Source: Nymphaea colorata (lineage: Eukaryota > Streptophyta > Magnoliopsida > Nymphaeales > Nymphaeaceae). Taken from it: 64,000 nucleotides of DNA. Shown one piece after another: positions 8,160-64,000 of the stretch (within the stretch, counting starts at the first letter, position 1; each line of letters begins with the position of its first letter). A program made the position numbers and the translations under genes. A model generated the notes under the pieces. That model saw only the letters and a list, made by a program, of their open reading frames with translations. It was not told the DNA's origin and searched no databases. The stretch is taken from NCBI RefSeq assembly GCF_008831285.2, contig NC_045138.2:18323934-18387933 (forward strand), in the 5' to 3' direction.

Positions 8160-10209
8160 CATGTAATATCCTAGAATAGCAAGTTATGAGGCGTTTAAGA
8201 AACTTGGTGGCTGGCCTTAACATTGAAAATTATAATTAACATATTGATTTATTGTAAGCCACTCTAGCTGTTAAATGGGTAGGCACGGACTTCAGTCTAT
8301 TTTTTTTTATGAAAGGATCTATCTGATTTGAGCAATATGTCAGTCAATGAAATGATATAGAATACATATTTTATACCATAGGACGGATGGTTCAATGTAA
8401 TTGGATTTAATAACATGTAAAGACTTGTAAACCCAGAACTAGTCAAACGAAGTAGATAGTCTCCTTGTTTTTCAAGGAGAGAAAATGATCCATCTTCAAT
8501 CGGTGCTTGTATTTTTCATTGCACGCGACTTTTCCCATATGCACTTTTCTGAAGACCTGCCATTTCTTGATTGTTTTTTTTAATCTATGGATGTAAATAT
8601 ATCTGGTTTGGATCATATATCCGACAGAATTCCAAAAAAATCTAGGATATGATAAAAAATTTAATATCCAACTAAGAATAGAATCTGATTTAAGAAATAA
8701 CATCCAATTTGATATTCAGATTCAGATATACAAAAATATTTGATCGATCAGATTCACATCCGATCAATTTATTTTTAAACAAATATTGTATATCCAATGC
8801 CCTTACATTTTGAAAGTCAGCATAATTCAGCTTAAAATTCAGACAAGGATTTAGATGTCAATTTAAAACCATAATTAAATCAAATTCAGATTGTTTATGG
8901 GATTTTGGATTTGGGTATGACTTTTTTTTTCATTTTTATTCAAATTCGAATACGTAAACATCCGAAAAAATGGATATGGTTAAGAGTATATCCAATTTGA
9001 ATATAATTTATTAGCATCTTTATCTATCTCTTTGATCATGTCTGGAACTAGATGAAATGAACCACAAACCCAATTTCTGTTCAAGAAGGTATTAAATTAA
9101 ATCTTTTCATATTTGATTCATCTTTGGGACCATACCAAATCTCCAATCTTTAACGTGGATACATAGGACAGTAGGTCACAAGCGATTAATTTCATAATCC
9201 ATTTCGAGTAATTCAAATTTAAAAAAGACAAACTAAAGAAAGAAAAATTCGTGCAATCTACTAATATTATAACCAAAATCAACAAGCGAGCGATCACATT
9301 CTTCTGTCATCTACTGAATTTTTGATTCGGCATCACAAGCTTTTTCTTCTGGTAGGTTGGGTTTAGTTATAGGATGAATTAAGCCATTGGACAACACATA
9401 TTAAGAGAAGGACACTATTCCTTCTTTCCTCTGCTTATTGCCAAAATGGAGAAAAAGGGTGATAAAAAGTATCATCATATATATGTTGAGAAACTTTTAA
9501 AAATTCAGAGACAAAAATTAATCAGGCCATTTAAAACACAACTTTTTTACATTATTAAGAACACACTTAAGTCTTAAGTAATTAATAAGTAAGCGCATAA
9601 TTTTCTCCTTTATTATAGCAGAGAAGCCATTCTTAAAGAACTCAACTCTACTAAGCTTCTACTTTAGCCAACATTCATGGCACTTCACTAAAAAAATAAA
9701 AAACAATACCTGAATTTTCCAATACATATTGATTTCTCTTGTATGACCTTCTAACACGAAGAAGACATTCACCTACCCAGTTCTGAAATTAATAAAAAGT
9801 CACTTATTTGGGTAATTTTTTAAAATAGAACAAAATATTACTATTAAGTACAGCTAAAGAGGATGATTGTGCACATTAATCAACATCAAATTTGTTTATG
9901 TTGAAGGTGGTTTAGTCGTTTTGCCTCATAATTAATGCAACTTAACTAAGACATAAGTCACATAACCAAGGCTAATGGACGGCGACTGCGTGTTTTTAAT
10001 TAATTATATCTCCAAATCTTTATATGTATGGCTTTTAAGACTTCCCAATACATTAAGAAAGTTCCAATGTTTGATCAATCTTGCCAAGAAGGTTATGGGA
10101 CATGCATTCTAGCATCAATACCGTCAACATTAGTATAAGCGGTTCATTTTACAAAGGAAGGGGATAATATTAGGCAATATAGTATTAATGTGAATCAGTA
10201 TATTTTCAA
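7602..10209. other. AT-rich gene-free region with microsatellites
   Basis: No exon recognised. It contains (TA)n at about 7903-7952 and 8127-8158, and a perfect 26-bp tandem duplication (ttgtctaagtgactctagat...) at 8061-8086 and 8087-8112. At about 8590-9020 there is a degraded member of a dispersed repeat that begins ggatgtaaatat and carries many ATCCAAT/GATTCAGAT words, related to those listed at 15.9, 24.7, 44.9, 48.3 and 51.6 kb. Confidence 0.6.
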
Positions 10210-11240
10210 CATTTTGTCTTTAAGAATAACTAATGACTAATTTAAAAATATTTAAAACAGGAAAAGGTTCATATATGGAGCCTCTTCACCCGTTCAAATA
10301 GGGATGTCAGTGAACCGAATTTGGATTAGTGGATATAGAATCTAACTGATTTAACTGAACCCGGACTGTGAATTTAAAAATCAGATCCAGACTTTTTTTT
10401 TTTCCCTTCTTATTTGAATTTATAAATGTCTATAAATCAGATATGATGAAGAGTTCATCGCATTTAAATTTGACCGGCCATATTTTTTATTTAAAATTAA
10501 TTAACAAATATTTAAAATTTAATAAAACAGAAAAAACCTTAATTTTCATAGAGTCTATGTTCCGCCAGCATTGACAGCACTCGCCTGAATAGTCAAAACT
10601 TGACCCCGTCCGAAGAAAATTGAAATTAATGATCGAGCTTAATAGTTTAACTACGTACTTTTCGTCCTGTTTCTAGAATACTGGGACAGAAATGCCAAGT
10701 TCTTTCACCAAAAAAGTCTCTCCTGAAGAAGAATGAAATAATTCTCCCATATTTTTCTTGATTAGTCAAAACGAAGACGGCAGATCCTTGACCATGGCAG
10801 TCACGTGGTGTTGCTTTTATAGGGCGCTTAATGGTCTTCAATTTTGATTCTAGAATCAGAATTCTAAGAACAAAATTCCATCTCAAATTAGAATTGAAAT
10901 GAAAATTATAGTTCTAGTTTCTCTTTTTATGTTTGATAGTCCGGAATTTGGATTTTAGAAGAAAAAATGATGTGTTTGATAATACATAAATTAGAATCCT
11001 AGAGTTGATGAATTGAAATCATCATAACGTGCACGCACATAAATATGCCCTCAAGAGAGATGATTTTTTTTTTTAAATTCTGAAAAGAATAATTCCACCC
11101 TTAAGGGGGAATCACAATTCCTAAATTTTAATTCGAGAATGAGCCGATAATTTTGGAATCAAAATTCTTTGTTTGATAATGCAATTCTCATATTAAAAAT
11201 AAAAATTTAAAATGAAGAATTTCACAGTTCTCCGACTCAT
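10210..11240. repeat. Diverged repeat block, copy A
   Basis: This stretch aligns by eye, in the same orientation, with 15803-17390. Shared landmarks are the atttaaaaca(g/a) start, aatagggatgtcaatgg, aaatcagatatgatgaagagt, ttagtcaaaacga, ggcagtcacgtg, tttgattctagaatcag and ttccacccttaaggg. It shows no intact ORF. Copy B is longer. In both copies the block is followed by WAT1-type gene fragments, so the two look like diverged copies of a larger unit. Confidence 0.65.
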
Positions 11241-11419
11241 CAAACACCCATAATCTCATGATCTTCGCTACCATGTTGTTTTCACTTGTGACGGTTTACA
11301 ATTCGTATTGCTTGGTGGCTTTCACTGTTGTCCATTACCTACAGTTTTTGTTTTGGTTGTCCATTAAGGAGGCCATTGAGCACGATGAAATTTCACCCAC
11401 TCGACGGCTCCCGATCGAA

Positions 11420-11625
11420 CGATGCAGAGGGGGAAAGGGGTAGAAACAGAGGGGAAAGGGTAGAAACAGAGGGGAAGGACGAGAAGAAGAAGAAGAAGGG
11501 ATAGAAGAAGGACGAGAAGAAGAAGAAGAAGAAGGGGTAGAAGTAAAAGGGGAAGGGGTAGAAGCAAAGGGGAAAGGGAGAAGCATAAGGGGAAGAAGAA
11601 GAAGAAAGGGTAGAATCAAACAGGG
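11420..11625. repeat. Purine-rich low-complexity tract
   Basis: About 200 bases of almost pure purine built from ggggtagaaacagag, aagaagaag and ggggaagg words. The ORFs on the opposite strand here (Leu/Pro/Ser runs) are by-products of this composition. Confidence 0.85.
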
Positions 11626-11823
11626 CCTCAAATCGAAAGAGAGTTAAATTTCATTTTGTATTTTTTTTCAAAAAAATTTACCATGGTAAATTTACCACAT
11701 TAAATTCTACCTTGTAATCGGACGTAACCTTAAGTAGGCGATTGAGCACTATGAATAGCCTTCATATAATTCGTGTGCCTGGTATATTTTTGAAAAGTAA
11801 CTGATATTTATGACTTCCTCAAC

Positions 11824-11929
11824 CTGCAGTGGACCGCCATGACAAAAGTCAGAGCAGACAGGATATTGCTCGTGGAATGGAACACCAGAAGTTGGGGGAA
11901 GTAAACTTCAGTCCGGCATAATAGAAGTT
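11824..11929 (-). pseudogene. WAT1/UMAMIT-type transporter exon 2 fragment
   Basis: On the minus strand 11929-11889 reads NFYYAGLKFTSPNF, and 11873-11825 reads MSNILSALTFVMAVHCR in a different frame. Together these match the conserved second-exon region of plant WAT1-related (nodulin MtN21, EamA/DMT superfamily) transporters. A GT donor directly follows (cag|gttgagg on the minus strand), so this is a genomic rather than cDNA-derived fragment. The frame change between the two parts makes it non-functional. Confidence 0.75.
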
Positions 11930-11969
11930 GTGATCAGTAAGAGGCCTCCCAAAGCCCAATGAGATCATA

Positions 11970-12350
11970 TTGAGTTCCATCTGTCTTGGAACGGATCTTT
12001 ATATTATACTGTGTCCCTGAGGCCAAAACAAGAATTTAAAACCAAACAAGATCGAACTCGATTCGGTCAAGGAACGGGACAAATCACTGATGATCTGAAA
12101 GCCGAGATGGAATCGGAAAAATAGCGTCCGGATCGGATGTGTGGAGCCTTCCAGATGATCGTGACAGGTCTCCTTGATGGTGACGAGTCCGATCCGGACG
12201 CGATTTTTCCGATTCCATCTCGGCTTTCAGATCATCAGTGATTTGTCCCGTTCCTTGACCGAATCGGATCTTGTTTGGTTTTAAATTCTTGTTTTGGCGT
12301 CAGGGACAGAGTATAATATAAAGATCCGTTCCAAGACAGATGGAACTCAA
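11970..12350. repeat. Long hairpin (inverted repeat), arms about 165 bp
   Basis: The left arm 11970-12136 (ttgagttccatctgtcttgg ... ggaatcggaaaaa) is nearly the exact reverse complement of 12186-12350. About 50 bases lie between the arms. Only a handful of mismatches are seen across the arm. No protein is recognised. It could be a MITE, or part of a larger foldback element lying inside the WAT1-derived structure. Confidence 0.85.
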
Positions 12351-12567
12351 CTGAATCGGAAGAGTATAAAGATCCGTTCCAACTGATATTATTCTCTCTT
12401 AATTTGATGCTCACAACTTGCAAATTTTATTTTATTCTGAGACATGAAGAAGCCTTCCTACATCTCACATTAGTAAACTTTTCTTGTACTAGGGTATTTC
12501 TTCCCAACTTAAGCATGAACATATCTTTTTATTCGCCAACGTTTGGAATATTTCTATAAATTAATAA

Positions 12568-12741
12568 GCTAAGGTATAGACTATATTATTCTGATCATTT
12601 TTTGGTTGTTTTTACCAATTCAATCATGTAGATATATGATACATATATCAGATTTTCCGATACATGTTCCAATATGAAGTTAATTTAGTTATTAATCAGT
12701 TTATAGCTTTGTCAATCCATAATATAGTCTATACCTTAGCT
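12568..12741. repeat. Short MITE-like inverted repeat
   Basis: agctaaggtatagactatat at 12568 recurs as its exact reverse complement ending at 12741, a perfect 21-bp inverted pair separated by about 130 AT-rich bases. This is typical of a small non-autonomous DNA element, but target duplications were not established. Confidence 0.6.
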
Positions 12742-13096
12742 TCCATGACGATTTACATTATTCTGTGGTACGAGTTTGTGAAAAAACTATTTGATGAGTC
12801 GCTTGGATGCCATGATTATATATAGAAAAAAATGTTTATTACGAAAACTGGATGTGTACATTAATTAGATTTTATAAGGTTATTCAAATGAATGGTCATA
12901 ATTTTTCATCTCACAAATTCCAACTTACACATCTCATTTTCATTATTCTTTTTTTTTTGTTTTTTAATCCCATAATTAGACATAACATGAAAAAAAATTC
13001 TTTGAAAAGGTTGTCACCCATTTTCTCATGGCTTTTCACATTGATCTTCTTGTTTATAGGAAGTACATTTCTCACAAACCGTGAGCAATATCCTGT

Positions 13097-13480
13097 TATG
13101 CCGGACTGAAGTTGGGGGAAGTAAACTTCAGTCCGGCATAATAGAAGTTGGGGGAAGCAAACTTCTTGCCTAAGACGAACATCAGAAAGGTGGAGAACGT
13201 CATCTGTGCCTCACTTTTCCGGCAAGAACATGCAGATAATGATCTGCCTGGTGAGCCCATGAAAGATCTGGAGCTGTTCGATCGGAAAAGGCTTATTGGT
13301 ATTCTACAGCAATATTTCGGATATATTGCCACGAAAAGGGTGAAAGGAGCCATGACCTTCATCACAAAGCCATGGCGCTACACCACAAGCTCATAGTGGC
13401 TCATTCCCCGCTCCGGCGCACCTCCGTGATGATGTTCATGCCGGCATAGCTGAATTGAAGCGAGACCATGGCGATGCAGC
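13097..13480 (-). pseudogene. WAT1/UMAMIT-type transporter fragment, exon 1-intron-exon 2 (left arm)
   Basis: Minus-strand 13477-13427 reads IAMVSLQFSYAGMNII, the hallmark first transmembrane segment of WAT1-related transporters (family form: SLQFGYAGMNII). After a degraded stretch, a region near 13210-13160 reads QMTFSTFLMFVLG, and 13149-13109 reads NFYYAGLKFTSPNF, the family's exon 2 motifs. WAT1-type proteins are ten-helix membrane transporters for auxin or amino acids. Here only the first two exons are present, and stops and frame changes break the reading. It forms the left arm of the palindrome and mirrors the plus-strand copy at 13500-13803. Confidence 0.75.
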
Positions 13481-13499
13481 GAGAAAGCAAGACTCACAT

Positions 13500-13803
13500 C
13501 GCCATGCGTCGCCATGATCTCGCTTCAATTCGGGTATGCCGGCATGAACATCATTCACGAGGGTGTGCCTTAACAGGTGAATGAGCCACTATGTGCTACT
13601 GGTGTGCCGCCATGCCTTTGCGCCCGCGGCCATGGCTCTTTTCGCCGATTCTCATGGAAAGGTATCAGAAACATTGCAGTAAAGTACCAACAAGCGTTTT
13701 TCAGTCGGACAGTTTGAGATCCGTCGTTGGCTCACCAGGCAGATCGTTCTTTGCATGTTGCGGCCACAGATCACACTCTCAACTTGTTCCATGAGCAATA
13801 TCC
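13500..13803 (+). pseudogene. WAT1/UMAMIT-type transporter fragment (right arm)
   Basis: The plus strand repeats the left arm in inverted order: SLQFGYAGMNII around 13517-13553, then in another frame MSHYVLLVCRHAFAP and AAMALFA at about 13580-13640, which match the exon 1 segment MSHYVLVVYRHAFAT of WAT1-type transporters. Downstream, CGHRSHSQL is the shifted remnant of the RPKITFS region, and exon 2 is largely deleted before catgagcaatatcc (13788). Non-functional fragment. Confidence 0.75.
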
Positions 13804-13805
13804 AT

Positions 13806-14228
13806 GACCATCTGATCCTTCGTCGATCCAGCGTTTATCCTCAACCGCCTGACAGGTCGAACCTGATTGAATTTTAATGTCATTCAAACAAGAAAACGTT
13901 TTAATTGTGCAAGGAACAGTGGATCTATTTCTATGAAATAGAAGTTCTCAAATAAAAAAAAAATGCGTGCAATCATCCACATACAGATTTAATATATATA
14001 CATCAAATCTTGTATATGGAGGAAGCCTTTATGATGTTGGAAAACAATTTGACCTCCATTGAAAAGCCAAATGAAAGTCGGCTGCAACGCTCATGAAACA
14101 AAAACATCAAACCTCAAGAAAAAATATAAATAAAAAAGAAACTAATGCAGAACGTACCAAAAAAAGTTAGAGCTTACTGACATTTTCAACAACTTCTTCA
14201 TCTAGACCTTATTTGATTTTCCATTCAG
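13806..14228. other. Intergenic spacer
   Basis: AT-rich sequence between two palindromes. No gene, hairpin or repeat recognised. Confidence 0.5.
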
Positions 14229-14229
14229 C

Positions 14230-14943
14230 ACCTGGTTTTGGAATTCCCACCCTTCCCCAACGAGGAGAGAAGAAAAAGGGAGGTTTTTGGCTGCATTTCA
14301 GGAATATACCCTTTGATGGCGAATTTCACCTCAGTGCACAATGGACAGTGACGGGAAGAAAGCCCAAATATCTCGAATCTAGTCGAACAGGGGAACTGGA
14401 TGGGAAAATAATGTGGGGGAAAGTGGGTAGCTGGTGTTTGGTGGTCGTTTCCCTTGTCTATCAGAAAGAGAGAGAATCGTTGAAGGTTGTAAAAGCCGAA
14501 AGAAACAATCACAAGGCAAAGCAAATATTCCCAGAAGCTTTTCCTGCATAAGAATATTCAGGCAGGTGGATTCAGAATATGAGTTAGCCCCTAGGAATCT
14601 GAATCCACCTGCTTGAATCTTCTTATGCAGGAAAAGCTTCTGGTAGTATTTGCTTTGCCTTGTGATTCTTTCGACTTTTACAACTTTCAACGACTCTCTC
14701 TCGTTCTCACGCACAAGGGAAATGACCGGCAAACAGCAGCTACCCACTTTCCCGCACATTATTTTCCCATCCAGTTCCCCTGTTCAACTAGATGCGAGAT
14801 ATTTGGGCTTTCTTCCCGTCACTGTCCATTGTGCACTGAAGTGACATTCGCCAACAAAGGGTATATTCCTGAAATGCGGCCAAAAACCTCCCTTCTTCTT
14901 TTCCCTCTTCTCTTTGGGGAAGAGTGGGAATTCCAAAACCAGA
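14230..14943. repeat. Large near-perfect palindrome, arms about 345 bp
   Basis: The left arm (about 14230-14578, starting cctggttttggaattcccac) is the reverse complement of the right arm (about 14595-14943). The spacer is only about 17 bases (around tatgagttagcccctagg). Both arms give overlapping ORFs, but I recognise no protein in them, and the ORFs mirror each other because of the inversion. The structure fits a foldback element or a head-to-head duplicated fragment able to form a long hairpin. Confidence 0.85.
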
Positions 14944-15802
14944 GGCCTGTATTTTATAGGGAAACACCATTTTCATATGGTAACTATGGATTCAAAAGAA
15001 TTAAAGTGAAGTCATAGCAAATCAAGAATTTGCAGGTATGAACAAAATGAAACTTTATATGCATACTTTTTTGGCAGAAGGCTTTTATAGGTGAAATAAA
15101 TTTTGCTACTTACGATTGATGAAAATGCAGACAATATAGAAGAAATTGAGTGGCATGTAGGAAAAGGCAGCTTCATTTCTATATTATCTTTGTTGGCTAT
15201 TGAAGAGATGAGTAGGTGCTTTCTGCTTTTGATTGGTTAAATCTTTGAATCTTGCAAAATATGGTTTTACAACCTTTTTTTTTTTCCTGCCATTTGTTTC
15301 TAGATCCATTTTATCCTCTATATTTGTAATGAGAAGCTTCATTAATTGCCAACTTCGCACTGATGATGATGTTGTCTGAAATGGTAAGGCGCAATCTCAA
15401 CCCCACCGCTCACGCACTCATCGTCTCCTTAGGTACAAAAGATGTGTCCATTCCTCACAGACTACAGCCTCTTCACCATGTATATCATGATAGTTAGTCA
15501 TGTTGCTGCTGTTTTTGAGTACTATGGTTGGTTGGATTTGATTGCAGTGGCAATCTCAATGTTCTTAATTATTGCTGACAAGATGGTGCTGTGTAAGGAA
15601 GAACTCTTCCCCTTATCTCCATTCTTGATCAAGCAAGGGTCAGCCCATTCATACATATATCTATATGATGGAAATGTCTGTAGGTCTACGTATATTTTGA
15701 CTTTTTTTTATTGTAATTCATATTTTTATGCATAAATTGTCTAATTAATAATGAAATTTCAATTTTAAATAACTTTTTTCTCTTTAATTGATATTTGATA
15801 TA
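14944..15802. other. Intergenic region, nothing recognised
   Basis: A plus-strand ORF at 15442-15735 (97 codons, hydrophobic) has no recognisable motif or splice context. I see no repeat structure. Confidence 0.45.
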
Positions 15803-17390
15803 TATATATAAGAACAATTAATGACCAATTTACAGATATTTAAAACAAAAAAAGATGGTTCATATGTGCAGCTTATAAATTTAAATAGGGATGTCAATGG
15901 ACCAGACGATTTGGATTCGATGTCTAACCTAACTGCTTCAAAAATGCAACATGTGAATAAATATTTACATTTAGTAATTAAGAAATAAGATGAGATGTCG
16001 TCCACTCTAATTTGGTTCTAAATAAATATACGATGAAATTCGGTTTTGCATTTGATTTTAAATAAATATCTTATATCCAATCTAAAGTCAGATCTTATGG
16101 TTGGATTTGTTTGTATATTTGAAAATTACATCATATTATTTGTGAATTTAAAAGTTAGATCATACTAAACTCGGACTGCGCATTTAAAAATCGGATTCAA
16201 AGTGGTATAAAGTTTTTTTTTCCTTCTTATTTACGTTCGAACACGAATTCAAAAGTATAGATGTCCATAAATCAGATCTATGATGAAGTGTACGGCTGAT
16301 TTGAATTTAACCCATTGGCATATCTACATTGAAACCGACTAACGCCACCAAACCTGCCCTGTACCATGTTCCTTAAACATATAATGTAAAATTAAATAAC
16401 AAATATTAAAATTTAATAAGACAAAAAAATCTTAATTTTTCAGGACTCGTTTGATGAATAGGATATTTCCTGTACCCATGTCAATAAAATTCAAAATTTT
16501 GAAAATTTTCTTGCCCATCAAAGTTAGGATGAAAAAAGTAAATGTTGGGTTGGTTTTCAGAAAGTTTTTTTTCAGAAATTTCTTTCCATTTAAGGGGTGA
16601 AAAAAAATTTTCAGGATAAAAAAAAGTTGCCGTTGGATTCTCAAGCAATGCTTAATTCAACTATTTTGTTTTTTCTTCTTATGGAACTGAGAAATTTATT
16701 TCTTGAAACATAAACCCAAATACAACAAACACAAAGAGGTTCTCCAAAATCTTGATTTTGTTTCTATTTTTTCAATTCCTGAAATAAGTTTATGAAAATT
16801 CTTTTAAACTCTATATTTCCAATGCATCAAAGGGCCCCTTATAGAAACTATATTTGGTCAATATTAACAACACCGGCCTAAATAGTCAAATCACTCTTCA
16901 GGTGTCAGTCCTCAAAGTTGACCTTCCAGATCTTAAGAAAATTGAAATGATCGAACTCAACAAATCAATTACTTGCTTTTCATTCAGATTCTATAATAGA
17001 AGGACGGAAATTGCCAAGTTCTTCCCCTTCCATACCTCACAAAAAAGTCTTTCCTACATTTTGATTGACGTTTGAAGGATGCAATCTCCCATGTATACTG
17101 TTCTTGATTAATTAAAACGAACAGGTATATTCTTTAGCATGGCGGTGACATGCCGATGCTTTTAGGGGGGCGTATCGAACTTTGATTCTAGAATTAAAAT
17201 TATAAAAATGAAGCTCTACTTCAAATGTTCCAGTTTCTTTTGTGTTTGACAATCTGAAATTAAATTAAAATTCTAGAATTGATGAATTAAAACCAACATG
17301 CACCCCAAAAAGAAACAAAGAAATTCTAAAATCTATAATAATAATTCCACCCTTAAGGTAGAATCTCAATTCCAGAATTAATAACGATGC
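15803..17390. repeat. Diverged repeat block, copy B
   Basis: Homologous by eye to 10210-11240 and longer, with additional AT-rich sequence around 16330-16850. It begins at gaccaatttacagatattta, includes aatagggatgtcaatggacc (a member of the TAGGGATGTCAA dispersed family) and ends in ttccacccttaaggtagaat. It is followed at once by the WAT1 palindrome at 17408. No intact coding region. Confidence 0.6.
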
Positions 17391-17407
17391 GGACAAATCA
17401 CAAACAC

Positions 17408-17805
17408 ACCTTCTTGATGATGTTCATGCCGGCATACCCGAATTGAAGCGAGATCAATGACGACGCAACATCGCAATGCGTCGTCATTGATCTCGCTTCA
17501 ATTCGGGTATGCCGGCATGAACATCATCCACTCACGAAGGTGTGTGCCTGAACAGCTGAATGCGCCACTATGTGCTAGTGTTGTGCCGCCGGACCGCCGT
17601 GCCTTTGCGACCGCAGGCATGGCTCCTTTCGCCGTTCTCGTGGAAAGGTACCAGAAATATTGCAATAAAGTAGCAATAAGCCTGACAGTTCGAGATCCGC
17701 CGTTGGCTCACCAGGCAGATCGTTCTTCGCGTGTTCTTTCATGAGGCCACAGATCACATTCTCAACCTTCTTCCTGATGTTCGCGTTATTCTCTTGTTAC
17801 ACGTC
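17408..17805 (+). pseudogene. WAT1/UMAMIT-type transporter fragment with terminal hairpin
   Basis: The plus strand carries LISLQFGYAGMNII at about 17484-17525, then MRHYVLVLCRR and, in another frame, AFATAGMAPFAVLVER (to about 17650), and after an intron-like stretch RPQITFSTFFLMF at about 17745-17785. These are the exon 1 and exon 2 signatures of WAT1-related transporters. The first about 55 bases (17408-17465) repeat exon 1 in inverted orientation, so the fragment starts as a head-to-head palindrome like the one centred at 13490, but with a much shorter left arm. It is frame-shifted and non-functional. Confidence 0.75.
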
Positions 17806-18249
17806 CACATCGTGTTAGGAGAACATTCAAAACCTGCGTCATATCAAGTGGATTAATTATTTCAATCGTGTCAAATGGTGTTGTAAGAAAAAATATTGTA
17901 TGTCAGTTGGAATGCTATGAAATTCAGTTTTTTAATTGTTTTCCTAAACCAATGTTTATCCAGATCTTCATGAGGATATGTTGCTTATTTATAATGTGAG
18001 ACAAATAACAACACACAGATAAGATGACTAAAATTAAAACAAGATTCAGTTCAATTAATGATCCGTTCGTCATGCAAGAATGTCAAATAATATAAAAGTA
18101 AATAAAGATATAAATTGGAAAACAATTAAGCATGATACGAAATATACGAACACACTACAGTGCTGACTTTGTGGATAAATATTTTCAGGGGAGTGGCTTT
18201 TAGTTCCATTTAAACAAGAAAATGGTATATTTAGTACTTATATGTGTTT

Positions 18250-19640
18250 TGATAATTCATTTTTCTTATTAAAGACCTTCTCTTTGCTGGCACCATGGAA
18301 CTGTCATCCAGTAACACGCCCAAGATGAAAAAGAAAGTTTTCATCTTTTACTGGATGGTGGATTGACTCAGGAGATATTCAACATATAACGAAGAGCAAC
18401 GATGGAATGATTGACTTGATCAAGGAATATCAACTTGGAGAGCATCGATCATCCATGGGAAATAACATTTCTTGCAAAGTATTAGGTATTGGTTCAGTTT
18501 GTCTTAATGTGAATGACACACATATAATTTTAGTGGTTGTGTTACCATCAATATGGTACAACTTGGTGTCCGTACCAGCTCTAATTGAAAAGAGTTTTGA
18601 AGTCGCATTCAATCTAGGAAAGGTGAGGATGGGAAAGCACGGTTGGGTCAAGTTTGAAGGTAAATTGGTTGCTTAAGCCGATCAATTATTTAAAAAATGT
18701 GAACCTCGCATATATGCTGAAATGGTTAGAAAACAATTTCAAACAGAAGTCGTAAAAGCCTACAATTTGTTAGAAATAATTCATACAAATAAATATGAAC
18801 TTTTAAAAACTCATAAAGGTGTTGCATGTCATTACATTTATTGATGACTTTTCAAGGTATCAATGTATATACCGTGCATCAAATAAGTCAGAAGCACTTG
18901 ATAAATTTAGTATATATCGTCGAGAAGTTAAAAAACAACTAGGTCGAGATATTAAAATTTTGAGATTTGATCGAGTTGGAACAATATGCTTCTAATGATT
19001 TATATACTTATTGCCAAGAGAATGACACTGATAATCAAACATCAACGCCAATAATTCCGTAACAAAATGTAATTGCTGAAACAGTAGAACATTTTTAAAT
19101 ATGACCGGATCTACATTATCAAATGCATCTTTGTCTAAAGAATTTTGGGTGAGATTGTTTGCACAACTATGCATATTTTAAATAGAGTTCCATGTAAAGT
19201 GTCATCTCTACACCATATCAATTATGGATTGACAAAAAACCATATCTAAGTTACCTTCTTTGATGGAGTTCTATAACTCAGGTAAAACTTGTGAATCCAT
19301 CAAGAGATAAGTTGATGACAACTCAATCCGATGTACAATCCTTGCATATTTAAATGGATCTAAAAGATGTAGGTTTTATCATCCAGATATGGGCTTAATT
19401 GAAAGTATAGATGTTGAATTTTTTTAAGAGTTAAATAATGATGATAAAAATCTCATAGTTATTATTAGCCGTGGCCCTTATGATTTAATTGTTGTTAATC
19501 TTATTGTTCAATCAAGTAAAGATGAAGCGATCGATAATGAAAATTCTCATTCTTGTCCAACATTTATTGGAAATAAGCGACCTAAAAATCCTCCCTCATA
19601 TTCAGATGACTATGATGTTTATTTCCCATTCTAAATTGTT
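18250..19640 (+). mobile_element. Ty1/Copia retrotransposon fossil (partial, broken)
   Basis: Plus-strand pieces match Copia pol in order: a protease/pre-integrase region (about 18350-18670) and an integrase core with TFIDDFSRY near 18830-18860 and KQLGRDIK near 18930, followed by downstream integrase sequence to about 19400. Reverse transcriptase and RNase H are not seen and no LTR pair was found. It is an old, heavily decayed partial copy with more than five breaks. Confidence 0.8.
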
Positions 19641-28135: not shown

Positions 28136-30829
28136 TCACCTGGGTCCGGAAACTTCCGAGCCGCATCGCGTACAGAACGAGACGGGTTCGGACCCGTCCT
28201 CCACCGAACACGCGACCTGGTCGTACCCATAGGCTTCCAGGAACCGCGGCGCCCTCTCAGACTCCACCAGCCACAGCGGCGGCGCCTCGACTTCCGCCTC
28301 CCCCTCCAGCATCTTCACCACCGTCACCATACACGGCCTTCTGTTCGGCTGCTCCTGGATGCACCAGAATGCTACTTTGGTCATCCGCTCTGCCTCCTCC
28401 ATCTCCGTTTCCGTCAACTTCAGCCTCGCGTCCACCACCTCGTTGAACTGCCCCTCCATCGCCTTCAGCATTGCCCACGCCGGGAAATAGCAGTGCCGTG
28501 GGTCCTCGGCTTCCGGCACAAAGTTCCGGCGGCCGGACACCAGTTCCAGCAACACCATCCCGTAGCTGTACACGTCGCACTTCTTCGTCGCCACCGAGTA
28601 GCGGATCCATTCCGGCGCGAGGTATCCTGGCGTGCCGCGAACCGCCGTCACGACCTGCGTCGTCTCGCCTTCCCCGAGCAGCCGGGACATGCCGAAATCG
28701 GAAAGTTTGGCGACGAATCGATCGTCTAGGAGGATGTTCTGAGGCTTGATATCGAGATGCATGATCGGCTCGCGGCAACCCTCGTGGAGGTAAGCCAAGC
28801 CACGAGCCGTGCCGACGGCGACGAAGTGTCTCTGTCTCCAATTTAGCAAACCGGTGCTCGGCTGGTCTTGTGCTTTAGTGGCGGAGGTCGACGGCCTGGG
28901 CTCGAAGAGCCATCTGTCGAGCGAGCCGTTGGGTAGGAGTTCGTAGACGAGGAGCCGGTGCCTGCTGTCGGCGCAGAAGCCGCGGAGGCGGACCAGGTTT
29001 ACGTGGGAGATGCTCCCGATCGTGGCGACCTCCGCCCGGAACTGGCGGCTTCCTTGCCGGAGGGTTTCGAGCTTCTTCACGGCCACCCGCGTGCCGTCGG
29101 GCAACGTGCCGCGGAAGACGGTGCCGAAACCGCCGGTGCCGAGCTTCTGGCTGAATCCATTTGTGGCGTCGCGAAGCGCCGCAAAGGTGAACCTCGGCGG
29201 CAGTCCCGGCAGCGTCTTCAGGAATTCCTCCTCTTCCAGTTCGTCCTTGTCCTCCTCGGAGTCCTCTTCGTCTTTGATGTCAGCGATCGAACTTGCTGCT
29301 CTAGGCCGCCAGACACACCGGAAGACTGCGAACACGAGGGCCAAGCAGCCGATGGTAATGCCGATTATTGAGAAAACGCTGAGATGGCTACGTGATCGAG
29401 CCTGTGTAGCTACTAGAGTGGTGGCATTCTGGACCTTGATTCCAGCATGATATGAATCATTGGCTGCATATTTGAGGGTATAGATGTTGCCTGAAACCAG
29501 AAAGCATTCGCCGGAGAAGTTTCGGTAGAAGTACGCGCGGCAAGCGCAGGAAGCAGAGCAGAGCGACTCACAGGCAGTCACATTTGAAGTGTAATTTTCT
29601 GGTGGCTTCAAGTCATTGAGAAAGTAGTCGTAGGCCGGAATACGAATGAAATGGATGGCTGTCTGGCTACCGGAAGTGCAGTTAATTGCGTTCCTGGGCT
29701 TGCAGCCGGCGGTGACGTCGCTGGGGCTAATCTGGTCAAAATGATCGGCGGAATCAACCCCAGGACAGCTGCATTGCTGGCTCCGGCAGAGCCCATAGGA
29801 GCCGCAGAAGGACGGCAAATCACAACTCTGTTGGGGAGACACCAGCTCTCGTTCGGGCCGCCAGTCAAGCGAAAAATTCGAATTCCATGGCTGCGGCGGC
29901 ATCAGCGCGTAGGTCCGGAGGTTTCCATCGGCGTCGAGGCGCAAGATCCCCGTGGTCGAGTCGTTGCGGTCGCCGGAATCGAGGTACGTGGAAGAATTGA
30001 GAAAAGAACAGGAAGCGGATGAATTTGATGCCCGGCCTGAGTAGTACAACTCCAACGAGAACCCCGTATATTCTGCGAAGGACTGACCAGCAGCGGAGAG
30101 ATTTGAAGGGGAGAAGCACGGCTGGACAGCGCCGGCGACGCTGAAATTGGACGTCATTGGAAGAGTCTTATACGGCTGGCCAGAATAGTATAGGACGGCA
30201 CCACCGGCGTGCATTGTGAGGTTGTAAAGGCCGGAAGTGCTATCGGAGAGGGCGGCGCCCTGACGGAGCGCCTGCTCAGGAAGGAGGACGTCCGACGGGT
30301 AGTCCCAGCTCTGCCAGATGACGCGACGGGCTACTGCAAGCAACCTGGTGGACGTATTATACACTTGGAGATTGCCATTTTCTAGCATGCCGAGCATCTT
30401 GGCGCCGGAGCCGCCTAGCGTGCCGACAACGGACCCGTTGGCGTCCTTGAGAACGATGGTTCTGTTGCCGAAGAGGCTGAGGGAGCAATTTCCGGGGATG
30501 GGCCGGGAAGGGTTGAGGGACCAAACGGTAGTAGCGCGGGCGGAAGAGGGGTTGATAACAATGGAGAGAATGAAGTTGGAGTTGTTGGGTTTGAGGAAGC
30601 CGAGGATGAAGGCAGACCCATTGCTCGCGATGGGGCTTCCGGTGGAGTTGGTTGCCGGGAAAAAGGTACCTCGGTCGGTGTTGATGGTGAGGTTTCCGGC
30701 TGACCCCGGCGACGTCGTCCAGTTCGTGGGCAATACAAAGAGTTCACCGGAGGCACAGTCCACCACGTAGAAGAGGAGGAGGAGGAGGGAGAGGAGACTG
30801 ATGGTGGTGGCGGTGGTGGTGCCGCTCAT
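28136..30829 (-). CDS. G-type lectin S-receptor-like serine/threonine kinase, intact and intronless
   Basis: An unbroken 897-residue ORF. A signal peptide (1-27) leads into a Ser/Asn-rich bulb-lectin-type ectodomain with many N-glycosylation sites (about 30-200, ending IWQSWDYPSD). An EGF-like cysteine cluster (336-356, CDLPSFCGSYGLC) and a PAN-like region (about 420-460, CESLCSASCACRAYFY) follow. The transmembrane segment is about 483-504. An acidic juxtamembrane run (517-536) precedes PGLPPRFTF and the kinase domain: glycine loop GTGGFG (564-569), VAVKK (582-586), HLDIKPQN (691-698), DFG (711-713), APE (738-740). The residue before the catalytic Asp is Leu, so this is a non-RD kinase, a class often tied to immune signalling. 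It acts at the plasma membrane; the ligand is unknown. The overall form is closest to the At5g35370/SD2-5 type. A truncated duplicate lies at 55726-57090. Confidence 0.93.
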   Translation of the reverse strand: MSGTTTATTISLLSLLLLLFYVVDCASGELFVLPTNWTTSPGSAGNLTINTDRGTFFPATNSTGSPIASNGSAFILGFLKPNNSNFILSIVINPSSARATTVWSLNPSRPIPGNCSLSLFGNRTIVLKDANGSVVGTLGGSGAKMLGMLENGNLQVYNTSTRLLAVARRVIWQSWDYPSDVLLPEQALRQGAALSDSTSGLYNLTMHAGGAVLYYSGQPYKTLPMTSNFSVAGAVQPCFSPSNLSAAGQSFAEYTGFSLELYYSGRASNSSASCSFLNSSTYLDSGDRNDSTTGILRLDADGNLRTYALMPPQPWNSNFSLDWRPERELVSPQQSCDLPSFCGSYGLCRSQQCSCPGVDSADHFDQISPSDVTAGCKPRNAINCTSGSQTAIHFIRIPAYDYFLNDLKPPENYTSNVTACESLCSASCACRAYFYRNFSGECFLVSGNIYTLKYAANDSYHAGIKVQNATTLVATQARSRSHLSVFSIIGITIGCLALVFAVFRCVWRPRAASSIADIKDEEDSEEDKDELEEEEFLKTLPGLPPRFTFAALRDATNGFSQKLGTGGFGTVFRGTLPDGTRVAVKKLETLRQGSRQFRAEVATIGSISHVNLVRLRGFCADSRHRLLVYELLPNGSLDRWLFEPRPSTSATKAQDQPSTGLLNWRQRHFVAVGTARGLAYLHEGCREPIMHLDIKPQNILLDDRFVAKLSDFGMSRLLGEGETTQVVTAVRGTPGYLAPEWIRYSVATKKCDVYSYGMVLLELVSGRRNFVPEAEDPRHCYFPAWAMLKAMEGQFNEVVDARLKLTETEMEEAERMTKVAFWCIQEQPNRRPCMVTVVKMLEGEAEVEAPPLWLVESERAPRFLEAYGYDQVACSVEDGSEPVSFCTRCGSEVSGPR

Positions 30830-42819: not shown

Positions 42820-44693
42820 ACAGGTTCTTTTCACGGCAAAAGGTCACAGGGATTAAAACTGCACGGGCCAAAATCAAAGAACAAGATAAATGAAGTCGAT
42901 CAGTTTCTCCCAAATCGAAAACCAGCATGTGATTCAGGAAGAATCTGTTTCTTGGCGCCGTCATTATTCGACAGTCAGAAATTTTCATGGTTCTCAGCAA
43001 ACGAGTGAGAAACTGAAAATCCCCTCCGATCGCAAACTTTAATGAGCAACCAAAGCAAAGCCAGAGCAAACGCCAAAACCGTAAAAAAAATATGGGAAAA
43101 CGAGAACAATAGCAAATTCTTTCAAAGGGGACAAAGAGGGTAACAAGATGCGCTCACTGAAGAAGCGTCTAACGAGCATCACACTGTGGATTTCCAACCA
43201 GGGGGTCATTTCTGGGGCTGTAAAGTCCGTAACCGAATGGACAGCCAAGACGATGGAGCAAACCAAGAGATTGACGAGGAGCGGAACGGAGTAGACCGCT
43301 TTGAAGAATGCCCATAGAAGCGAGGGGTCGCCCTGAACGGAGAGGACGGAAGAGACCGCCCGAAAGAATACCCATCGAAACAAGCGGCCGTTCGGGCGTA
43401 GTGATTGTGTTACCCCGGCCTCGATGTCGGTGGCTTGCATGTTGGGAGTCGTGTCAATCACCCTGTTGGTGCAACTGAGAGCCTGACAGAGGAGCCCGCC
43501 GCGAGAGGGAGAGAGAGCAGTGGAACTCCACTCTTTCTTATGTTGTGTGCATGGTCAAGCATTAGCTAAACGACGTTATCAAGCGAGGGGTCATTCGGAC
43601 GGAGGATACCGCCCGAAAGAATGCCCGTAGAAACAAGCAGCCGTTCGGGCGTAGTGATTGTGTTACCCCGGCCTCGATGTCGGAGGCTTGCATGTTGGGA
43701 GTCGTGTCAATCACCTTGTTGGTGCAACTAAGAGCGACAGAGGAGCCCGCCGCGAGAGGGAGAGAGCGATGGAACTCCATTCTTTTTTATGTTGTGTGCA
43801 TAGTCAAGCTTTAGCTAAACGACGTTCTCATGCTACTTTGATGTTCCACTAATGACGTTAAACACGAAGCTAGCATGAGAACGTCGTTTAGCTACAGCTT
43901 GACCATGCACACAACAAGCTTGACCATGCACACAACATAAGAAAGAGTGGAGTTCCACTGCTCTCTCTCCCTCTCGCTGCGGGCTCCTCTGTTAGGCTCT
44001 CAGTTGCACCAACAGGGTGATTGACATGACTCCCAACATGCAAGCTACCGACATCGAGGCCGGGGTAACACAATCACTACGCCCGAACGGCCGCTTGTTT
44101 CTACGGGGATTCTTTCGGGCGGTCTCCTCTGTCCGGATGACCCCTTGCTTCTACGGGTATTCTTTCGGGCGGTCTCTTCCGTCCTCTCCGTTCAGGATGA
44201 CCCCTCGCTTCTATGGGCATTCTTCGAAGCGGTCTACTCCGTTCAGCTCCTCATCAGTCTCTTGGTTTGCTCCATCGTCTTGGCTGTCCATTCGGTTACA
44301 GACTTTACAGCCTAGTAATGACCCCCGGGTTGAAATCCACAGTTAGACGCTTCTTCAGTGAGCGCATCTCGTTACCCTCTTTGTCCCCTTTGAAAGAATT
44401 TGCTATTGTTCTTGTTTTCCCAAATTTTTTTTACGGTTTTGGCATTTGCTCTGGCTTTGCTTTGGTTGCTCATTAAAATTTGCGATCGGAGGGGATTTTC
44501 AGTTTCTCAGTGTTTCTTGTTTGCCGAGAACCATGAAAGTTTCTGACTGTTGAATAATGACGGGGCCAAGAAACAGATTTTTCCTGAATCACATGCTGGT
44601 TTCAATCGACTTCATTTATCTTGTTCTTTGATTTTGGCCCGTGCAGTTTTAATCCCTCTGAACTTTTGCCGCGAAAAGAACCTGCTCAGTTTT
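42820..44693. mobile_element. Foldback element, arms about 650 bp
   Basis: The left arm (about 42823-43470, starting acaggttcttttcacggcaa) and right arm (about 44010-44693, ending gcgaaaagaacctgct) are inverted copies. The segment around cggccgttcgggcgtagtga is present three times, at about 43385 and 43635 in one direction and 44080 in the other. The middle (43830-43905) holds a further stem, aacgacgttctcatgct against agcatgagaacgtcgtt. No transposase is seen and the contained ORFs mirror each other. It lies exactly at the edge of block B copy 1: the sequence before it matches 61880-61945 and the sequence after it does not resume that match. Confidence 0.8.
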
Positions 44694-61945: not shown

Positions 61946-62772
61946 TTAAAACCCAATAATAGTCAGCTAGAATTCCCCCAACCTTACCTGTTATGTCACA
62001 TTAAAACCCAATAATAGTGAGCTACAATTCCCCCAACCCCACCTGCAAACAGGTGTTCTGGACGAGCCGGCCAGCTCACATGCTCTCTGACCTGTCTCTT
62101 TAAGCGACAGCAGCTCTCTTAATTAGCTGCTCCATCAAATTACCAAAATGCATGTGTTTCCATCAGAAGGTGCCAACGGCTTCTGCCCCTTCAACTTGCA
62201 GAAGAAGGGCCTTTGCCACGCAGACTGCTTCAACAGCTACAACAATCTTCCTGCCACCTTCGCCCGCAGAATAAGAGATCGAGCATCAGGAATAGCCAGT
62301 AAACAATAAGTGTCTGAATCGCCGTTTGACACAACCGCAGAAAAGCCAAATTCAGGATGAAAATGGAATTACATCCCACAAAAGAAAACCAAGACTGATA
62401 GGATGAACATGGCATCCATGGGCAATCTGTATAGGTCAATCCAAATAGATGTGGTAAAAGTCTTTTTTGTTTTTTCGCGAAAAATGTTGATTGTTAAGAT
62501 AATAAAGGCGGCAGTAGAGGAAATGCAACAAGTTGCCGTCAACATGGAACTCCACTGCAATAAATAAGAGGAGCAGATGATGAGAGCAGCCAGAGGATGT
62601 GCAGAAAGGGATAGATGAATGCAATTTATATTAAAAGAGAGAAGGAATTGAAGATCTGCGAACCAGATCGACCTCTCGCTCTCTGCCTTTCCTTTTTCCT
62701 TTTTGCTCTCACCATGACTGGTCCTCATCAGATATGCCCATCATCGTCCACCACTTCAAATTAGCCACAGAA
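61946..62772. other. Upstream region of the IQD gene
   Basis: A short duplicated phrase (aaacccaataatagt...agctagaattcccccaacc) occurs at about 61949 and 61994. The rest should hold the promoter and leader of the IQD gene. An upstream in-frame ATG at 62734 would add 13 residues, but the family N-terminus starts at 62773. A minus-strand hydrophobic ORF (62369-62728) has no known motif. Confidence 0.5.
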
Positions 62773-64000
62773 ATGGGAAAAGCCAGCAAATGGCTGAGAA
62801 GCTTCTGGGGCAGGAACAAGGAGCAGGTCAAGGACAAAGAAAAGCTAAACCAAACGTCTTCAAATGAGGACAGATCCGCCCCAACCGCAAGTCAAATTCC
62901 AAAAGAGAAACGCAGATGGAGTTTCTCCAGATCGAATCCTAAGGATTCAAATTCACCCAATTCTTCTGCTGCAAACGCCGATGCCACCACAACTGGCTCC
63001 ATTATATCCGCCTGTGAATCGGAGAGTGAACAAAAGAAGCATGAAATTGCAGCTTCAGCAAAAGATACCGTACTCGTTGGTGATACTGCCGCTGCTGTCA
63101 GTAGGCTTATCCTCGTGTCAAGCCAGCTGACTGTAGCTGAGGAAATCGCTGCCATTAAGATTCAAGCTGTTTTCCGTTCTTATCTTGTTGGCTCTCACTT
63201 GCTATTTCTTGCTCTAAACTCCAAGTTAACAAATTCAAAATGTACTAACTTCTGCTTTCTGCAGGCAAGAAAAGCTTTGCGAGCACTCAAAGGCTTGGTG
63301 AAGTTGCAGGCCCTAGTGAGAGGTCATCTAGTGAGGAAGCAGGCTACTGCCACTCTGCGGTGCATGCAAGCACTTGTAACAGTTCAGGCCCGAGCCCGAG
63401 CTCAAAGAATTAGAATGACTGAAGAAGCACGATATCATGCTCTGCAATTATCTGATCCCAAGAGAACAAATCATGAACACCAATTCAGATGTTCATATGT
63501 AAGTGAAACCCCTTTCTCAACATCTTATTTTCAAGTTTCAACATTTCTACTGTGAAATAAGTGCAAGTTATTCAAAAGTTTGCACTAGATTTAACGGTCA
63601 GAATTACATAACAATTACACATACCAACCTGAATTTGCTGAAACTTAAAGTGTAAATATCTGTTCAACAAGAAAAAAAATTAAGTAGTCCAGCACTTCAC
63701 ATCCTGGTTAAGAACATACAAAAGACAGAGTGAAAGTTCTTCCTTTAGGATAAACATAGAATAGAAAGACTACTAACTAGCAGTGTCTTTTTTTGTTCTT
63801 CTTAGAATCCTGACAGAAGGATTGAGAACATAAAAATTGTCGAGATAGACATGAGTGGAAGCGGGGATACCTCAAAGGGGACAGCCAATTCTAGGCCCGT
63901 GCCACCCCTTCCAAAGCTGGATTGCACCAAATCCGCTGCTCTAACCGAATTAGCCGATGACAGAGAATGGGTCTGCAAAAAGGACACGGAGGAATATTCA
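62773..64000 (+). CDS. IQ67-domain (IQD) calmodulin-binding protein, 5' part
   Basis: Three exons are inferred: 62773-63186, 63265-63498 and 63806 onward, with GT/AG borders in phase 0; the last runs past the window. The start gives [13 protein letters not shown], the typical IQD N-terminus. A basic, Ser-rich region follows. The IQ67 domain (about 123-190) begins [16 protein letters not shown] at the end of exon 1 and continues [21 protein letters not shown] in exon 2. The split after the first IQ helix at codon 138 is the intron position characteristic of this family. Exon 3 begins [18 protein letters not shown], also family-like. IQD proteins bind calmodulin and microtubules or membranes and act as scaffolds for calcium signals and cell shape. 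The first donor is GTTGGC, weaker than usual. Confidence 0.93.

Follow-up and report, generated by a model that had tools for sequence, protein, structure and literature searches.

Organization of the locus

The window analysed here is a 64,000-nucleotide stretch of the Nymphaea colorata genome (C1:18323934-18387933), and the searched genome amounts to 407.8 Mb. Four fold-backs of different ages, referred to as P2, P1, P3 and P4 in their order along the sequence, are located in a 5.6-kb part of this window. P1 (13168-13797, centre at about 13490; 13227-13759 and 76.4% in the self-comparison, whose palindrome percentages here and below include gaps and run across spacers) is a real palindrome, and both of its arms are fragments of a WAT1-like (EamA) transporter gene placed head to head. 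The first-pass annotation had described 11824-13805 as a single palindrome; the WAT1 palindrome stands, confined to 13168-13797, while the wider interval lumps with it a second palindrome of non-WAT1 sequence (P2, 11970-12350).

Each arm of P1 spans a portion of exon 1, intron 1 and sequence from exon 2. The left arm (P1L, 13168-13478, minus strand), delimited by tblastn and parent-gene alignment, includes exon 1 from approximately the MISLQFGYAGMNII motif, intron 1 and exon 2. The right arm (P1R, 13505-13797, plus strand), delimited by parent-gene alignment, comprises exon 1, intron 1 and the start of exon 2, and ends, as read by eye, in a short exon 3 remnant beyond a deletion. A spacer of 26 nt (13479-13504) lies between them. 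Translated comparison detected exon 1 motifs on both arms and exon 2 on P1L, with stops and frameshifts, and the exon 2 sequence of P1R is visible from the nucleotide alignment. Outside a 40-nt core the two arms are identical at 169 of 227 positions (26% different), and 45 of 49 inner columns agree. The parent-gene alignment bears out what had been read initially from the letters, namely an inverted repeat with WAT1-type coding signatures and intron remnants in both arms, and the proposed potential for long-hairpin pairing is matched by a predicted fold of -352.6 kcal/mol for the plus strand at 13200-13790, which none of 100 shuffles equalled.

A second WAT1 palindrome, P4 (17404-17783; 17404-17545 and 86.7% in the self-comparison), was absent from the earlier description and repeats the WAT1 fragment of P1, identically oriented, at a distance of 4 kb. 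Its left arm (P4L, 17404-17467, minus strand) is short and pairs without a mismatch over 52 nt (17416-17467) with the right arm (P4R, 17477-17783, plus strand), which contains exon 1, intron 1 and the start of exon 2. All 50 inner columns agree between the arms, and the predicted hairpin reaches -120.2 kcal/mol, with none of 200 shuffles as good. The spacers differ (26 nt in P1, 9 nt in P4), so that two separate fold-backs are possible.

None of P1L, P1R and P4R is open, as stops or frameshifts occur in each; the P1 left-arm frame alone has no Pfam match, no convincing match to exon 4 was found between 9 and 19 kb in the window, the PDB search gave no match and the NCBIfam matches were all below cut-off. 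The WAT1 copies are pseudogenes and not functional transporter genes.

Gene-derived inverted repeats are of a known kind; the unusual part is the clustering of fold-backs of different ages and from several donors. The interval 11.97-17.55 kb holds four of the seven palindrome rows of the window, with scores of 178-917. In 52 other loci (209,964 bases), a non-random control sample in which overlaps and one duplicate locus are counted, eight palindrome rows were detected, five of them distinct and all with scores of 133 or less, and in the 27,000 less biased bases of this control one of six stretches carried a palindrome, with a score of 133. Elsewhere in the window, a larger composite palindrome is found at 42821-44684 (arms 42821-43560 and 43918-44684, 86%) with an inner palindrome at 43581-44150 (83%); eight of its 15 non-self matches are nearby (C1:18.27-18.50 Mb), and its frame 43039-43461 has no Pfam match. 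The window also contains, at 28136-30829 on the minus strand, an 897-aa open reading frame with a protein kinase and a PAN domain and a lectin match just under the cut-off, which looks like a receptor-like kinase.

Parent-type genes and source of the WAT1 fragment

Of 168 candidates from a genome-wide search with a WAT1-type query, 150 were scored, which gave at least 97 matches. Exons 1-3 and part of the fourth are present at the two best loci, C1:37026647 and C9:6786332, whose joined exon translations match PF00892 (EamA) with E-values of 3.1e-13 and 3.4e-12, respectively. The domain match is to EamA, and WAT1 is the name under which we group these transporter genes. Exon numbers are counted from these two genes, with borders set from tblastn matches and GT/AG signals. 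The search for a parent gene that the first-pass annotation had called for was successful, the closest being the C9 gene, and the alignments to these parent-type genes support its view that a WAT1-type gene fragment had been captured into a hairpin.

The arms align exon by exon to the EamA-bearing genes, and in deriving from a gene elsewhere in the genome they resemble MIRNA genes formed by inverted duplication. All start at nearly the same point of exon 1 and, with the exception of the short left arm of P4, run on through intron 1 into exon 2. Outside the 40-nt core, the C9 gene is matched at 178/221 positions by P1R (80%), 179/255 by P1L (70%) and 185/227 by P4R, and the C1 gene at 144/212 (68%), 148/246 (60%) and 155/222 in the same order. 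Intron 1 of the arms matches that of the C9 gene at 68/90 (P1R), 67/87 (P4R) and 65/98 (P1L) positions, that is, 66-77%, whereas the C1 and C9 genes agree at 44/82 (54%); because the arm introns are closer to C9 than that of C1 is, the fragment comes from the C9 side. Since introns were kept, genomic DNA was copied, and copying from a fully spliced mRNA is ruled out by the retention of intron 1 and of the last part of intron 2. The idea that C9:6.786M and C1:37.03M are dispersed copies of the palindrome was also discarded, as both are genes that align to both arms.

The putatively detached exon 3 piece and the adjoining patchwork

Upstream of P1, the segment 11822-11957 (minus strand) had been taken for a third exon 2 piece 1.2 kb away. 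Comparison with the C9 and C1 genes (116/131 and 109/131 identical, respectively) corrects this: the segment is exon 3 with the adjoining ends of introns 2 and 3, and it is best read as a stretch that presumably formed the outer end of P1L before being separated from it. The sequence that follows it (11931-13107) is a patchwork with an exact 43-bp duplication of exon 3 sequence at both borders (11888-11930 = 13108-13150), and a small fold-back with 16-bp arms, read from the sequence, is located inside the exon 3 sequence at the patchwork border (13096-13141). The patchwork contains P2 and two segments (12387-12761, minus strand) similar, in swapped order, to C2:1623451-1624001 (C2:1.62 Mb). 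The locus around that C2 sequence (C2:1619500-1629000) has three weak palindromes of its own.

P2 and P3 and their donor-like sequences

P2 (88.9% in the self-comparison) resembles a donor-like sequence at C11:13973748-13973990, which adjoins a dormancy/auxin-repressed-like reading frame (PF05564, E 3.3e-8). Its arms match each other at 160/163 ungapped positions and match C11 at 155/167 and 153/163 (93-94%). P3 (14232-14942; 88.4%) has its donor-like sequence at C11:13552455-13553294, 0.42 Mb from the other; its outer arms match each other at 206/221 positions and C11 at 208/221 and 214/225 (94-95%), its inner arms match each other at 84/91 and C11 at 85/91 and 87/95, and the donor segments are in identical rearranged order in both arms. 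An explanation of the matches to C11:13.5-14.0 Mb by shared regional ancestry, tested with one gene of the window, is unsupported: the best relative of the IQ-motif gene (62734-63552) is on C2 and its 25 matches include none on C11, and the C11 donors thus look ectopic.

Relationships among the WAT1 arms

A degenerate direct duplication is located upstream of the two WAT1 palindromes, with a first copy at 10221-11127 before P1 and a second at 15809-17379 before P4 (both on the plus strand; 616/780 ungapped positions identical and 126 gap columns, two overlapping blocks being counted). The copies have in common a dispersed MITE-like repeat, which begins at about 10812 in the first, and the second is broken by another dispersed repeat at about 16438-16847. 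The latter repeat, of approximately 400 bp, has at least 38 other copies with 74-86% identity (40 scored of the 441 candidates that the whole query gave at first).

P1R and P4R agree at 249 of 275 positions and are closer to each other than the copies of the flanking duplication are (Fisher P = 1e-5), which makes a single tandem duplication insufficient unless conversion or constraint is invoked. In a tree of P1R, P4R, P1L and the C1 and C9 genes, from which P4L was excluded as too short, the three arms group together to the exclusion of both genes (bootstrap 94; FastTree 0.86) and P1R pairs with P4R (bootstrap 83; FastTree 0.76). The three arms have five changes in common at positions where C1 and C9 agree. 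P1L has a long branch, with 43 private changes vs 14 in P1R (P = 0.0002), a rate about three times faster.

Proposed origin: recurrent fold-back repair

From the sequences, their parents, the retained introns, the relative divergences and the pairing potential, we infer that recurrent fold-back repair synthesis most likely left the WAT1 pseudogene hairpins at this site. The source would be WAT1-like genomic DNA with exons 1-3 and their introns, from the C9 lineage after its split from the C1 gene, and the fragment would have arrived on C1 as a head-to-head inverted duplication, most likely produced by fold-back (snap-back or template-switch) synthesis during the repair of a break or fork. The unit and its upstream flank may later have been duplicated in direct orientation to give P1 and P4, and fold-backs would have continued at the site, with P2 formed inside the left arm of P1 and P3 just downstream. 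By its look, the inner stem of P4 would have been newly made or re-corrected after the duplication, as suggested by the agreement of 50/50 inner columns in P4 vs 45/49 in P1. Transcripts of P1 and P4, if made, would form long hairpins with the WAT1 antisense sequence in the 5' arm. The two copies can be regarded as candidate hairpin-RNA loci that are probably silent or give rise to few siRNAs. To this history as a whole, from inverted duplication through direct duplication and repeated folding back to silent or weak hairpin loci, we assign a probability of about 0.6.

The fold-back history is supported by P2, whose arms are near-identical yet 6-7% different from C11, and by the scrambled order common to both arms of P3. 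Conversely, the direct duplication is old and patchy, and the long branch of P1L could mean that this arm originated from a WAT1 pseudogene other than that of P1R. The junctions were read by eye.

Alternative explanations

The best placed of the alternatives, although we regard it as doubtful, is that P1 and P4 would be tandem young small-RNA genes originated by inverted duplication of their target, whose small RNAs would direct cleavage within exon 1 of the WAT1 transcripts from C9 and C1. Both hairpins are predicted to fold far better than their shuffles, and among 21-mers of the antisense arm the best penalty is 0 on the C9 gene and 1 on the C1 gene, while among 11 other WAT1-like loci, taken from 30, five reach a penalty of 3-4 and six do not reach 4; such complementarity to the parent, however, follows from descent. 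All four WAT1 arms share a 20-nt stretch, TATGCCGGCATGAACATCAT, without any difference, and of 73 loci the C9 gene is the only other one to contain it. Beside the loop lies the best 40-column window, with 2 of the 74 changes counted in a 266-column alignment of three arms (permutation scan P = 0.011), and the differences between P1R and P4R are 0/40 in the core vs 26/218 elsewhere (Fisher P = 0.019). This core was noticed prior to testing, and pairwise tests are weaker (P = 0.10, 0.10 and 0.09 for the longest run; P = 0.23, 0.06 and 0.045 for the best 41-column window). In addition, the same pattern would arise if the stem had been corrected close to the loop, the perfect 52-nt pairing of P4 is more like a recent DNA correction than a microRNA precursor, P1L diverges fast, and none of the 20 Rfam matches in the interval 9000-19000 of the window reached the gathering score of a known microRNA family.

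It is unlikely that the WAT1 and C11 fragments were picked up and carried to this place by a transposon, whether Pack-MULE-like or a fold-back element. In favour of this reading, several unlinked donors are gathered here, dispersed MITE-like repeats lie beside the units and both C11 donors are within 0.42 Mb, but the palindromes look low-copy: among the matches listed, the P2 and P3 queries returned only the locus and the donor, and the 11824-13805 query returned nothing beyond this locus, both parents, the C11 donor, the C2:1.62 Mb sequence and 57 bp at C9:14.6 Mb. Inspection by eye recognised no transposon ends or target duplications.

A mixed origin, in which the site keeps turning ectopic gene fragments into hairpins and one of these would be a tandem small-RNA gene pair with a selected WAT1-complementary core while the remainder of its sequence decays, seems quite improbable. 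Even less credit is given to the arms of P1 being different WAT1 pseudogenes set head to head by a rearrangement, which would account for the far greater divergence of P1L but is at odds with the shared changes, the single clade and the nearly identical starting point of the arms. A read or assembly artefact is rejected for P1 and P3 by the divergence between their arms (26% outside the core and 7%, respectively), an argument that divergence alone does not provide for P2, whose arms are 98% alike.

Comparison with known systems

To our knowledge, it is seldom possible to see how the inverted repeats that become plant small-RNA genes are formed. At this one locus, parent genes, donor loci and several fold-back ages are found side by side, so that it could serve to test by which mechanism such repeats form and whether small-RNA production sets in or not. 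The titles and abstract openings of the literature surveyed revealed no hairpin locus derived from WAT1.

Published lists of microRNA targets include a WAT1-related transcript for Nicotiana benthamiana (PMC4667520) and a member of the WAT1-related exporter family for rice (PMC8759253). Gene-derived inverted repeats are described as known starting material of plant small-RNA genes (PMC10004981, PMC3237417) and long hairpins as able to silence plant genes (PMC11390486). The MIRNA genes attributed to inverted target duplication (the Allen model), among them miR161, miR163 and MIR1444 (PMC10004981), resemble the present locus, as far as that account goes, in having arms that come from a protein-coding gene still in the genome and are antisense and sense to it; by contrast, introns are kept in the N. 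colorata arms, which are long and partly decayed and are known from sequence alone in one species. Like the maize Tpd1-type hairpin-RNA loci, described in an excerpted account as sources of 22-nt siRNAs (PMC11390486), P1 and P4 are long inverted repeats homologous to a host gene, although here the inner stem is short in P4 and imperfect in P1 and the evidence is that of the DNA letters. With regard to the fragility of fold-backs and quasi-palindromes, two reports (PMC3855049, PMC3907307) describe inverted duplications with small spacers, a nested later insertion and better pairing in the inner stem than in the outer arms, features that are also seen here. Those cases are from yeast and human, whereas the donors are ectopic and the events old at this site; the observation that inverted repeats are break-prone in yeast (PMC3855049) fits recurrent fold-back repair at a single site.
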